Shown here: in pieces, positions 798-47,722 of the stretch
How positions within the stretch are numbered: position 1 is the stretch's first letter
Layout: each line of letters begins with the position of its first letter
Position numbers and translations under genes: made by a program
NCBI GenBank assembly: GCA_017519185.1
Contig: JAFWSX010000023.1
Span: 62,001-126,000 of the forward strand
Source of the DNA: Bacteroidales bacterium
Lineage (GTDB): Bacteria > Bacteroidota > Bacteroidia > Bacteroidales > UBA932
Reading direction: 5' to 3'
Length of the DNA stretch: 64,000 nucleotides
Notes under the pieces: model-generated
The model's input: the letters and a program-made list of their open reading frames with translations, nothing else
Databases searched by the model: none
What the model was told of the DNA's origin: nothing

Positions 798-1678
798 TCG
801 CCGGCCTCCCCGGCTTCTATGAGAATGTGGTCGTCGACGTCGCTTTCGTCTTCGTCCATCTCCTCGTAGTCTTCCTCATCGTCGCCGTCGCTCTCCTTGT
901 TCTGGTCCTTTTCGCTGCGGCATACCATAATGCTGAACTCATAGAGCAGATAGAGAGGAATAGCCACTATCATCATCGTGAAGGCGTCGCCGCTCGGCGT
1001 GATGATGGCCGCCAGGATCACCAGGATGACGATTGCGTGCCGCCTGTATTTCTTGAGAAGCTCCTTGTTGATGATGCCCACGCGCGACAGCAGGGCTGCC
1101 AGGATAGGCATCTCGAATACGATTCCCATCACCAGTATCAGTCCGAGGAACATACCGATGTAGGATGTCAGCGAGATTTCGTTGGGGATGTCGGGCGATA
1201 CCTGATAGGTTCCCAGGAACTTCACGGTAAGGGGGAGTACGAGGAAGTAGCCGCAGGCGAGTCCCATATAGAAAAGGATGCCTGCAAAGCCGAACGTGCC
1301 CCTGATGGCCCTCTTCTCCTTCGGGTAGAGCGCAGGACGGATGAAGGTCCACATCTCATAGAAGAAAAAGGGCATTCCGATGATCAGGGCCACGAAAAAC
1401 GAGACTTTCAGATGCGTAAAGAACTGTGCGGACATTTCGATATTCATCACTTTGATATCGAAACTGTCCACTCCCTTCAAACCCACCAGGCCGAGCAGCT
1501 TGTCGAAACCCCTGTAGAGGATGAAATCGGAGTTCAAGGGACCGAAGATGACATTGAACATCGGCTCCTTGAAGAAGAATGCCGCCACGGTGAGAACCAG
1601 CAGCACTCCGATTATCCGGAACAGTACTTTTCGAAGCTCGTCAAGATGGTCCCAGAAGGACATCTTTACGTCTGACAT
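794..1678 (-). CDS. tatC: Sec-independent protein translocase TatC
   Basis: TatC is the multispanning receptor of the twin-arginine translocase and binds signal peptides of folded exported proteins. The family marks are present: SFWDHLDELRK near the N-terminus and FYEMWTFIRPALYPKEKR after the second membrane helix, with six hydrophobic segments up to about residue 250. The last ~40 residues form an unusually acidic Asp/Glu-rich tail that is not needed for the TatC fold. The gene follows tatA by 6 nt and overlaps the ABC-F start by four bases. No tatB is seen, which is usual for a two-component TatA/TatC system. Confidence 0.97.
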   Translation of the reverse strand: MSDVKMSFWDHLDELRKVLFRIIGVLLVLTVAAFFFKEPMFNVIFGPLNSDFILYRGFDKLLGLVGLKGVDSFDIKVMNIEMSAQFFTHLKVSFFVALIIGMPFFFYEMWTFIRPALYPKEKRAIRGTFGFAGILFYMGLACGYFLVLPLTVKFLGTYQVSPDIPNEISLTSYIGMFLGLILVMGIVFEMPILAALLSRVGIINKELLKKYRRHAIVILVILAAIITPSGDAFTMMIVAIPLYLLYEFSIMVCRSEKDQNKESDGDDEEDYEEMDEDESDVDDHILIEAGEAGE

Positions 1679-1684
1679 GCCTCT

Positions 1685-1903
1685 TTATTTTTTAGTGTCG
1701 TCAGACATTACGTCCTTCTTGATGTCGTCGAATTCCTTCTCGGCTTCTTTCATTCCGCCTTTGAATTCCTTGACGCCTTTACCGAGACCGCGCATCAGCT
1801 CGGGAATCTTCTTGCCTCCGAAGAGCAGGAGGACTACAAGGACGATGGCTACTATTTCCCAGGTTCCCAGGGTAAGGGGCATAATATACAATGCTGTGAT
1901 CAT
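1685..1903 (-). CDS. tatA: Twin-arginine translocase subunit TatA/TatE
   Basis: Small pore-forming Tat component: one N-terminal transmembrane helix ([15 protein letters not shown]), the hinge [15 protein letters not shown], an amphipathic helix, and a charged C-terminal tail ending DDTKK. It has 72 residues from the ATG at 1903. A second in-frame ATG at 1882 (residue 8, giving MPLTLGTWE) matches the very short N-tail usual in this family and may be the true start. Neither ATG has a convincing Shine-Dalgarno sequence. The gene lies 21 nt downstream of valS and 6 nt upstream of tatC, so it is probably part of a valS-tatA-tatC-abcF transcript. Confidence 0.93.
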
Positions 1904-12701: not shown

Positions 12702-14315
12702 TTAGAGCTGGGGACCTGCTGCTACGAGAGCCTTGCCGGCTTCGTTGCCTTCATACTTCTTGAAGTTCTTGATGAAGCGCTCTGCGAGGTCGCGGGCCTT
12801 TGCATCCCACTCAGCGCGATTCTGGTAAGTGTCGCGAGGATCGAGGATACCCCAGGCAACGCCGTCGAGCTGAGTCGGCACTTCGAGGTTGAAGTAAGGG
12901 ATCTTCTTGGTAGGAGCGTTCAGGATAGCGCCGCCGAGGATGGCGTCGATGATACCGCGGGTGTCGCGGATAGAGATACGCTTGCCGGTACCGTTCCAGC
13001 CAGTGTTCACGAGGTATGCCTTGGCACCGCTCTGCTCCATCCTCTTCACGAGTTCCTCAGCATATTTGGTAGGATGCAGCTCCAGGAATGCCTGGCCGAA
13101 GCAAGCTGAGAAGGTCGGAGTAGGCTCGGTGATTCCGCGCTCGGTACCTGCGAGTTTAGCGGTGAAACCTGAGAGGAAGTAGTACTTGGTCTGCTCGGGA
13201 GTCAGGATAGAAACCGGAGGAAGAACGCCGAATGCATCGGCTGACAGGAAGATGACGCTCTTGGCTGCGGGACCTGAAGAGATCGGGCGAACGTTCTTCA
13301 CGATGTTGGTGATGTGCTCGATAGGATAGCTTACGCGGGTGTTCTCGGTAACGCTCTTGTCCTTGAAATCGATCTTGCCTTCTGCGTCAACGGTAACGTT
13401 CTCGAGGAGGGCGTCGCGTTTGATGGCGTTGTAGATATCGGGCTCAGACTCTTTGTCGAGGTTGATGACTTTGGCGTAGCAGCCGCCTTCGAAGTTGAAG
13501 ACGCCGTTGTCGTCCCAGCCGTGCTCGTCGTCACCGATGAGGAGACGTTTCGGGTCGGTTGAAAGGGTGGTCTTGCCGGTGCCTGACAGGCCGAAGAAGA
13601 TGGCGGTGTTCTCGCCCTTCATATCGGTGTTGGCTGAGCAGTGCATTGCAGCGATGCCCTTCAGAGGGAGGTAGTAGTTCATCATTGAGAACATACCCTT
13701 CTTCATCTCGCCGCCATACCAGGTGTTGAGGATAACCTGCTCGCGTGAAGTGGTGTTGAATGCAACGCAGGTTGAAGAGTTCAGACCGAGCTCCTTGAAG
13801 TTGGGAACTTCTGCCTTTGAAGCGGTGTAAACCACGAAATCAGGCTCGAAAGATGCTTCTTCCTCAGCAGTGGGTTTGATGAACATGTTGCGTACGAAGT
13901 GTGCCTGCCAAGCAACTTCCATAAAGAAACGTACAGCCATGCGGGTATCCTTGTTAGCGCCGCAGAAAGCGTCGACTACATAAAGGTCCTTGCCTGAGAG
14001 CTCGTCAAGTGCCAGGGCTTTAACCTTGCCCCAAACTTCCTCGCTCATCGGGTGGTTGTCGTTCTTGTATTCATCAGTAGTCCACCATACGGTATCCTTT
14101 GACTGGGGATCCATAACGATGTATTTGTCTTTAGGAGAACGTCCGGTGTAGACTCCGGTCATTACGTTAACTGCTCCGAGTTCGGTGAGGACACCTTTGT
14201 CGAAACCAGTAAGAGAGGGATCCATCTCATCTTTGAATAACTCCTCGTATGAAGGATTGTAATGAACTTTACCGGCGTTTTTGATACCGTACTTTGAGAA
14301 ATCGATCTTTGCCAT
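12702..14315 (-). CDS. pckA: Phosphoenolpyruvate carboxykinase (ATP)
   Basis: 537 residues. It interconverts oxaloacetate and phosphoenolpyruvate with ATP/ADP; in fermenting Bacteroidales it often runs in the carboxylating direction towards succinate. The substrate loop [15 protein letters not shown], the phosphate loop [15 protein letters not shown] and the second kinase motif [18 protein letters not shown] are intact. Third codon positions contain more T than in neighbouring genes, consistent with high expression. A -7 box (TACTTTTG) lies at 14377-14370, giving a leader of roughly 50 nt. Confidence 0.98.
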
Positions 14316-45510: not shown

Positions 45511-46539
<1,029 letters not shown>

Positions 46540-46561: not shown

Positions 46562-46597
46562 AAAACGGCCCGGCACCCCCGAGCCGTTTTTTTTTGC
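46562..46597 (+). terminator. gapA terminator
   Basis: AAAACGGC and GCCGTTTT form the stem around a C-rich loop, followed by a run of nine or more T. It lies 22 nt after the gapA stop codon. Confidence 0.85.
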
Positions 46598-46655
46598 ACT
46601 GTTTTCAACATTCAGACGTATGGTAGCAATGATTGTCAATACCGATCGCATGGCA

Positions 46656-46824
46656 GAGGGGAGTAAAGCAAGGCCTTCGGGGGGTTCCGTGAGCTGACGC
46701 TCACTCCAATCCCTCCCAACGCCATCATCGTCATTGCTTACGCAATAACTCGCTGTCGTCGGGTCCCTCCCGCTCTGCACGCCGCGGGTGGCCAGCCCCC
46801 GCTCAGGCCTTCTTTACTCCCCTC
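46656..46824 (-). repeat. Structured intergenic element, copy 1
   Basis: Read on the minus strand, it is closed by a ~20-bp stem (arms 46824-46805 and 46676-46656) with one bulged G on the 3' side. Inside, in order: GAG then TGGCCACCC (46794-46786), a CGAGTT-ATTGC-GTAA-GCAAT-GACGA hairpin, a GGGAGGG block and a perfect GTGAGC-GTCA-GCTCAC hairpin (46704-46689). The layout and conserved blocks are shared with copy 2, while the stem sequences differ but stay paired. No coding potential is seen. Likely a structured RNA or a hairpin DNA element; function unknown. Confidence 0.65.
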
Positions 46825-46888
46825 ATACCTGCTTCCCAACATGCTTATTATAGGCAATCGCGTCAGTATGCCACATACCTGTACTGTA

Positions 46889-47050
46889 TCAGATTGGAAA
46901 GAAGGTCTGAGGGAACATGGCCACCCCGGCCAGGGAAGAGGGAGGTTGCCTGCTGGATACGAGTTCTGCGAAGCAGGACGAAGTAGACAGGAGGAGGGTA
47001 CGAAGGAGCGAAGCGACTGAGCTTCCAGAAGACCTTGCTTTCCAATCTGA
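46889..47050 (+). repeat. Structured intergenic element, copy 2
   Basis: Read on the plus strand, it is closed by a 20-bp stem (46889-46908 with 47030-47050) that is perfect apart from one bulged G on the 3' side, the same place as in copy 1. Inside: GAG then TGGCCACCC (46918-46926), a CGAGTT-CTGC-GAA-GCAG-GACGA hairpin (46960-46980), a GGAGGG block and a GAAG/CTTC-closed segment. It ends 21 bp before the yggS stop codon, downstream of that convergent gene. Confidence 0.65.
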
Positions 47051-47071
47051 TTTCAGCGAGGAAATAAATCA

Positions 47072-47722
47072 CTACCTGGCACCGAAGATGGCGGTGCCGA
47101 TGCGTACCATTGTGGAGCCGCACTCGATGGCGATTTCGTAGTCGCCGGTCATTCCCATAGATATCTCGGGCTTTTCAATTCCGGCAATCGCGGCGATTTC
47201 TGAGCAGATGGATGCCGCATTCGAAAATTCACGACGGACCTGGTCTGTATCGTCGGTGAAAGTAGCCATGGCCATCACACCGCGCAGCCGCACGTTCGGA
47301 AAATCCGCCATACGTGACGCAAGATCCACAGCCTCCTCACGCGAAAGCCCGTGCTTAGTAGCCTCCGAAGCCACGAACACTTCAAGAAGGATATCCTGAA
47401 CCTTTGAGATTTTCGCCGCCTGGTCATTGACAGCCTTGAGCAGATGCTCGCTGTCAATCGACTGGATGAGCGCAGCGTAAGGCACCACGTTCTTCACCTT
47501 GTTGGTCTGGAGATGACCGATGAAATGCCATTCTATGTCCGCAGGCAGCTGGCGCGCCTTGTCCTGGAACTCGAGAGGCCTGTTCTCGCCGAACACCCTC
47601 TGCCCTGCCTCATACGCCTCCATCAGAGCCTCAACAGGCTTGAACTTGGAAACGGCCACCAGCTTTACGCCGGCAGGCAGACTGTTCCTGAAAAAAGCTA
47701 TCTGGTCACCGATGACGCCCAT
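47072..47722 (-). CDS. YggS-family pyridoxal-phosphate homeostasis protein
   Basis: 216 residues, a PLP-binding TIM barrel without known catalysis, involved in B6 and amino-acid balance. The PLP Lys lies in LVAVSKFKPVEAL, and FGENRPLEFQDK, HFIGHLQTNKVKNV and SMGMTGDYEIAIECGSTMVRIG match the family closely. The start overlaps the yidC stop as TAATG. It is the end of the DUF349-yidC-yggS group. Confidence 0.95.
   Translation of the reverse strand: MGVIGDQIAFFRNSLPAGVKLVAVSKFKPVEALMEAYEAGQRVFGENRPLEFQDKARQLPADIEWHFIGHLQTNKVKNVVPYAALIQSIDSEHLLKAVNDQAAKISKVQDILLEVFVASEATKHGLSREEAVDLASRMADFPNVRLRGVMAMATFTDDTDQVRREFSNAASICSEIAAIAGIEKPEISMGMTGDYEIAIECGSTMVRIGTAIFGAR

Follow-up and report, generated by a model that had tools for sequence, protein, structure and literature searches.

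The window, a stretch of 64,000 nucleotides from the genome of a Bacteroidales bacterium, contains two structured elements, A and B, in the gap between two convergent genes. The gene on the plus strand is one that, from its translation, we take to encode glyceraldehyde-3-phosphate dehydrogenase (gapA-like), and the gene on the minus strand presumably encodes a YggS-type PLP-binding protein (yggS-like). An earlier note on this DNA had described two related elements here on opposite strands; both are present and share one layout, with the bounds of element B now set at 46888-47051. The features are as follows.

45523-46539, plus strand: upstream gene (gapA-like), with a hairpin-plus-T terminator at about 46567-46595
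46656-46824, minus strand: element A, whole, roughly of the 150-175-base class, bounded by perfect inverted repeats
46816-46824 (GAGGGGAGT) and 46656-46664 (ACTCCCCTC), minus strand: outer arms of element A
46808-46815 (AAAGAAGG) and 46665-46673 (CCTTGCTTT), minus strand: inner arms of element A
46685-46774, minus strand: conserved core of element A (84.1 bits with covariance model R1)
46825-46887: spacer of 63 bp between A and B, which are head-to-head with their 5' ends facing
46888-47051, plus strand: element B, whole, bounded by perfect inverted repeats
46888-46897 (ATCAGATTGG) and 47042-47051 (CCAATCTGAT), plus strand: outer arms of element B
46898-46905 (AAAGAAGG) and 47033-47041 (CCTTGCTTT), plus strand: inner arms of element B
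46918-46932, plus strand: C-loop hairpin of element B, TGGCC-ACCCC-GGCCA, its C-rich loop facing the linker GAGGG at 46938-46942
46938-47022, plus strand: conserved core of element B (87.6 bits with model R1)
46949-46994, plus strand: main covarying hairpin of element B, CCTGCTG (46949-46955) with CAGGAGG (46988-46994)
46956-46957 with 46986-46987, plus strand: tandem GA of the main hairpin, then TAC/GTA and GAG/GACGA
Tip of the main hairpin, plus strand: terminal hairpin CTGC-GAA-GCAG
47004-47018, plus strand: second hairpin of element B, AGGAGC-GAA-GCGACT, containing a tandem GA
47072-47722, minus strand: convergent gene (yggS-like), with about 21 bp between element B and its stop codon

The perfect inverted repeats are 13-14 bp long (46656-46668 with 46812-46824 in A, and 46888-46901 with 47038-47051 in B). 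The minimum free energies are -95.9 kcal/mol for A and -70.8 kcal/mol for B, corresponding to z = -7.8 and -6.4 relative to dinucleotide shuffles, none of which (0/200) equalled either element. The elements belong to two different sub-types. The blocks that the earlier note had picked out as shared, namely AAAGAAGG, TGGCCACCC, CGAGTT-hairpin-GACGA, GGAGGG, and CCTTGCTTT with its extra G, align between them. The tandem GA of the second hairpin is exchanged for G-C and A-T pairs in some copies, including element A. Neither A nor B has a long T-run at its arms, and the terminators of the neighbouring genes are separate; thus, the GC-rich hairpin followed directly by a T-run that marks an intrinsic terminator is lacking. 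The region is not protein-coding, a possibility that the earlier note had set against its own reading, since the interior length varies among copies (143-152 nt) by non-multiples of three and hence no open frame is conserved.

The earlier note knew of no Bacteroidales RNA family with such a layout, and the database bears this out: Rfam 15 gives no match at the gathering threshold in the window and none at E<=5 in 46580-47100. At three other loci the only Rfam match was a sub-threshold miRNA hit, which lies outside the element and is due to chance. Known RNA families were accordingly rejected as the identity of the elements.

The family of structured intergenic repeats to which A and B belong had not been catalogued before, and in the genomes sampled it is confined to one Bacteroidales family. 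In the window's own genome (2.21 Mb in 37 contigs), BLAST-type searches found 21 places with B as the query and 16 with A. The copies fall into sub-types A, B, and C, plus one of type D, with a core of about 86 positions common to all; the inner arms are common within types A and B, the outer arms are not, and type C has different ends (CAGACTG..GGCGAC / GTCGCC..CAGGTCTG). The covariance model R1 was built from 28 cores, including those of A and B, whose E values of about 1e-20 or better therefore follow by construction. The earlier note had proposed searching related genomes with such a model and counting copies per genome. R1 finds about 26 cores in the window's own genome, and cores are present in 22 of the 26 genomes of the genus and in 79 of 300 sampled genomes of the family, representing 9 of 26 genera. 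When 393 sampled genomes of the order were searched with stricter filters, the sole match was the window's own genome; this sample takes in a few genomes of the family, which also lack the core, and those of its genomes that lie outside the family gave no core. Scanning named genomes for the pattern yielded 54 stretches, many of ruminant or horse origin; every title names a Bacteroidales, Bacteroidia, Bacteroidaceae, or Prevotellaceae MAG or a Candidatus genus of that group. Searches of phages, plasmids, and IMG/VR gave no match to the element.

Some individual matches differ from the general picture. A very weak R1 match in the window at 13069-13146, plus strand (13.7 bits, E 0.06), is probably due to chance. 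A longer variant of type B, with an extra self-complementary domain of about 80 nt, occurs in the window's own genome (L010/L007, G000:C25:41304-41532, where G000 is that genome) and in another species (L126, G022:C14), with the domain at the same internal position in both. Near a contig end of the window's own genome (L028/L019, the end of G000:C23) there are nested, partly tandem fragments of element ends in which GCAGGAAAGCAAGGTCTTCGGGAAGCTC is repeated.

The structure of the core is most clearly seen in the alignment of the 28 copies. The core stem CCCGTTG/CAATGGG has the variants CCCGACG/CGTTGGG, CCCGCCG/CGGTGGG, and CCTGCTG/CAGTAGG, all of which still pair, so that neighbouring pairs change together. 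Inward of this stem lies a variable tandem G.A/A.G step followed by TAC/GTA or TGC/GCA, and further inward a second, nearly invariant tandem GA followed by the inner hairpin already noticed in the earlier note, which is of the CTGC, ATCGC, or ATTGC kind. A separate hairpin, GTGAGC..GCGAAC, holds another tandem GA, which in 8/28 copies gives way, as one unit, to G-C plus A-T (GTGAGC..GCTCAC). Overall, 97.7% of cells in the core helices are paired and 11 pairs show double changes. The covariation score of 0.371 compares with 0.148 for shuffles (0/500 as high) and at most 0.120 for slid controls; since compensatory substitutions exceed these controls, the helices behave as those of a structured-RNA family. 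The mismatches are strand-polar, with 53 G.T cells and 0 A.C cells, although 50 of the 53 G.T cells come from two positions. Because G.T cells and tandem GA steps make sense on one strand only, that strand is the folded one.

We read the C-loop hairpin upstream of the core as forming a putative pseudoknot with the linker that follows it. The loops CCCTC, CCCGC, CCCAC, CCCGT, and CCCCC face the linkers GAGGG, GCGGG, GTGGG, ACGGG, and GGGGG, respectively. An automatic count gave complementarity in 19/45 copies, compared with a mean of 4.1 and a maximum of 12 in permutations, which here and below treat related copies as independent; the CCCCC/GGGGG cases were mis-registered in that count, and correction by eye raises it to 37/45. 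The pairing is clear in most other sub-types and is shorter and weaker in type B of the window.

The outer arms follow different rules. In the window's genus, interiors that are 93-97% identical are closed by unrelated, self-complementary outer arms of 5-14 bp, for example, ATCAGATTGG/CCAATCTGAT, GGCAGAGAG/CTCTCTGCC, ACACAGAAAGG/CCTTTCTGTGT, and TTCCGAAGGAAGA/TCTTCCTTCGGAA. The total perfect arm length is 220 when each arm is paired with its own partner, whereas swapped arms give a mean of 59 and a maximum of 139 in 10000 permutations. This total includes 60 from one copy (L068, G015:C88:68-214) whose perfect arms of about 60 bp, close to the end of a contig, could result from misassembly; without that copy the total is 160, still above the permutation maximum. 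The presence of unrelated arms around near-identical interiors means that the arms of A and B do not form a simple series of point substitutions. The difference between their outer stems (GAGGGGAGT/ACTCCCCTC versus CAGATTGG/CCAATCTG), which had been taken as compensatory change, is therefore poor evidence for it; the inner helices, and the subfamilies with related arms in other genera, supply the compensatory evidence instead. In those genera the arms are 20-30 bp long and again copy-specific (median alignment score 39.5 for own versus 14 for swapped arms), and groups of related arms recur at unrelated loci, which indicates that the arms travel with the unit. In the largest arm group, double compensatory changes are seen in 19 of the 26 arm pairs, and two copies beside the same gene in different genomes (G314 and G330) have arms that differ in this way. 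Such paired changes mean that the arms co-vary; the polarity of arm mismatches in these genera is weak (G.T 42, A.C 23). We infer the pace of this co-variation, and likewise its cause, which may be selection or hairpin-templated mutation.

Comparison of the same loci among related species gives information on gain and loss. The junction between the gapA-like and yggS-like genes was read in five sister species, and none has such an element there. In four of them the gap is short, and in the fifth (G008, L093) it holds a different large hairpin repeat with the parts GCAAGTCGGCAG..CTGCCGACTTGC and CCAGCCCTCC..GGAGGG. Another hairpin family occurs in G015 (L129), and several unrelated hairpin families use the same gaps. 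At a galM-side locus, G002 has the unit together with its arms, and G000, G001, G004, and G015 lack both. Locus L066 is filled in G001 and empty in G004 at 90% flank identity, and site L064 is occupied or empty depending on the species. A site between AKR and MFS genes (L052, L053, L126), also among those seen both occupied and empty, is filled in three species with related arms, and in G004 the interior is inverted when compared with G002 and G022. The divergence of the flanks at empty sites prevents a target duplication from being defined. Loci that are empty in sister species, together with one site filled in both orientations, show that the elements move or are lost; copy number ranges from 0 to about 26 among close species.

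These empty alleles also bear on where the arms come from. If a conserved hairpin unit had been inserted into pre-existing palindromes, such as terminator stems, the arms would derive from the target, and this would explain why they differ between copies with nearly identical interiors. On the other hand, the arms meet the element without loop bases, they are absent from the empty alleles at L066 and L064, and the sharing of related arms between unrelated loci of other genera shows that they move with the unit. Target palindromes are thus unsupported as the source of the arms, and we consider this origin highly improbable.

The placement of the copies relative to gene ends, a further check suggested in the earlier note, was tallied with simple ORF calls. 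For 124 copies there is a gene no more than 600 bp away on the 3' side, and in 91 of these the gene is directed toward the element; when the genes are clustered by protein, the count becomes 72/102 clusters (p = 4e-5). A weaker tendency of the same kind exists on the 5' side, and in the window's genus element orientation is weakly biased with respect to the 3' gene (30 versus 16, p = 0.054). In part of the cases the terminators of the converging genes lie between gene and element. Upstream of the elements the promoter motif TAnnTTTG is not enriched (15/71 on the plus strand, 14/71 on the minus strand), and sRNA genes with their own promoters were rejected on this ground. As a post-hoc remark, four head-to-head pairs lie within about 200 bp of each other (in the window, in C9, in G330:C14, and in G178:C13), and no tail-to-tail or tandem pair is equally close among the matches listed.

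It is conceivable that the elements are structured noncoding RNA genes or cis-acting 3'-UTR RNAs that are maintained by selection as many paralogues, with movement being incidental. The deep covariation of core and arms, the pseudoknot, and the strand polarity are all in keeping with this, as are the double compensatory arm changes between the orthologous copies of G314 and G330. Such genes would not be expected to vary from 0 to about 26 copies among close species with many sites empty in sisters, nor do the copies show a linked gene class or upstream promoter enrichment; we therefore regard this explanation as rather unlikely, but as one to be kept in mind.

If the units are mobile, an enzyme acting in trans is to be sought, and RAYT, the Y1 HUH transposase that would mobilise REP/REPIN-like elements, is one candidate. 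A RAYT-like gene adjoins a type-C copy in G000, G005, and G008 and a core in G017; G021 has a related remnant, and G321 is a further case. Despite this adjacency in the window's genus, RAYT was rejected as a general partner: for 40 other genomes that carry cores, the tables list 68 Y1_Tnp matches and 76 cores, and reading the two tables together showed none of these matches near any of these cores; 12 of the 40 have no Y1_Tnp match. Moreover, the RAYT genes read are flanked by their own short REPIN palindromes of different sequence, no GTAG-type tag was seen by eye at the element base, and the unit, with its conserved ends AAAGAAGG/CCTTGCTTT or those of other sub-types, measures 150-175 nt compared with 20-40 nt for a REP hairpin, which would carry a GTAG or CGTC tag. 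There is thus only a very small chance that the family is a RAYT-driven one. The RAYT-like gene of the window's own genome (L168, G000:C23:1000-4500; 983-1858, minus strand) encodes 291 aa with a weak Y1_Tnp match and is flanked by palindromic repeats, TTATGGGTCC..GGACCCATAA, that differ from those flanking other RAYTs in the genus. A reverse transcriptase, retron, or group II partner was also rejected, since PF00078 has no match in the window's genome. Neither search yielded a mobilising enzyme.

Alternatively, the copies might be passive remnants of a larger transposon, that is, strict MITEs, whose fold itself has no function. They are indeed short, dispersed, and non-coding, with terminal inverted repeats, and truncated and nested copies exist at the C23 end. 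The earlier note had named arms identical in sequence as the sign of a MITE; here the inner arms agree within types A and B and the outer arms do not. Interior pairs covary and mismatches are strand-polar, neither of which is predicted by terminal repeats alone. The loci read showed no larger element bounded by these ends, except that transposase genes adjoin cores in two genera only; there (L226 and L243) the start of a DDE-type transposase gene lies about 170 bp upstream of each core, and the two transposases are 64% identical. We consider a purely passive origin very doubtful. The earlier note had concluded that a conserved structure, and not a copied transposon end, was present: covariation in the core upholds the structure, and the contrast with a transposon-like repeat falls, because the family is dispersed over about 26 sites, is missing from sister sites, and occurs in both orientations.

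The reading that we favour, with a probability of roughly 0.6, is that the family of A and B is a new one, made up of structured intergenic repeats that are mobile but non-autonomous and act as a folded single strand, either RNA or DNA. The unit consists of a long self-complementary stem closing a conserved core made of the pseudoknotted C-loop hairpin, the tandem-G.A hairpin, and the GTGAGC hairpin. As covariation and strand asymmetry show, selection keeps the fold of one defined strand. This strand may be read as RNA, in a 3'-UTR or read-through transcript, or else as an exposed single DNA strand by a trans-acting enzyme that moves the unit. Moves do not leave the arms unchanged, yet the arms stay paired; they probably diverge fast, with both hairpin-templated correction and selection contributing to their complementarity. 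The units sit just beyond the 3' ends of genes, where they would do little damage and may shape transcript ends.

A bolder and distinctly speculative version, which we think unlikely, is that the unit acquires a rebuilt closing stem wherever it lands, for example, by fold-back copying of flanking DNA, which would make this a new class of mobile single-strand element. Every copy would then come to have complementary arms of its own while the pseudoknotted core stays constant, with the inversion at one site and the head-to-head pairs arising as by-products.

With this family, a group of Bacteroidales from rumen and gut that are uncultured gains a repeat that covaries strongly, is pseudoknotted, and is absent from Rfam. 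Since the paired arms evolve jointly while the core stays constant, the family offers a direct way to ask how long bacterial palindromes arise and stay paired, and raises the question of whether a trans-acting enzyme recognises the folded single strand.

Several known systems resemble this family in part. ERIC, BOX, NEMIS/Correia, and YPAL are clade-limited intergenic imperfect palindromes of 100-170 bp with dozens of copies, and the present family is like them in all these respects; unlike them, it has a pseudoknot, tandem-GA helices, strand-polar covariation, and a copy-specific outer stem, and its hosts are Bacteroidales. It shares with MITEs the small size, the lack of need for an ORF, the terminal inverted repeats, and the differences in presence and absence, but its outer terminal repeats are not common to the copies and its interior is structurally conserved. 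Of retron msr-msd and group II intron RNAs, which can be compared together, the retrons have long terminal inverted repeats around a folded RNA, and the family resembles them in this layout; it differs in being dispersed without a linked gene, in a genome with no reverse transcriptase match. The Bacteroidales and Bacteroides motifs of Rfam (PMC2864571 and later) are likewise structured and clade-limited, but no Rfam 15 model matches the family even at E up to 5. Finally, REP/REPIN repeats with RAYT (background in PMC3733652 and PMC6006769) are also palindromic repeats past gene ends, and RAYT-like genes occur in the present genomes; compared with these repeats, the present family is several times longer, has no general linkage to RAYT and no tag tetranucleotide that we saw, and is separate from the short RAYT-flanking REPINs that the same genomes carry.
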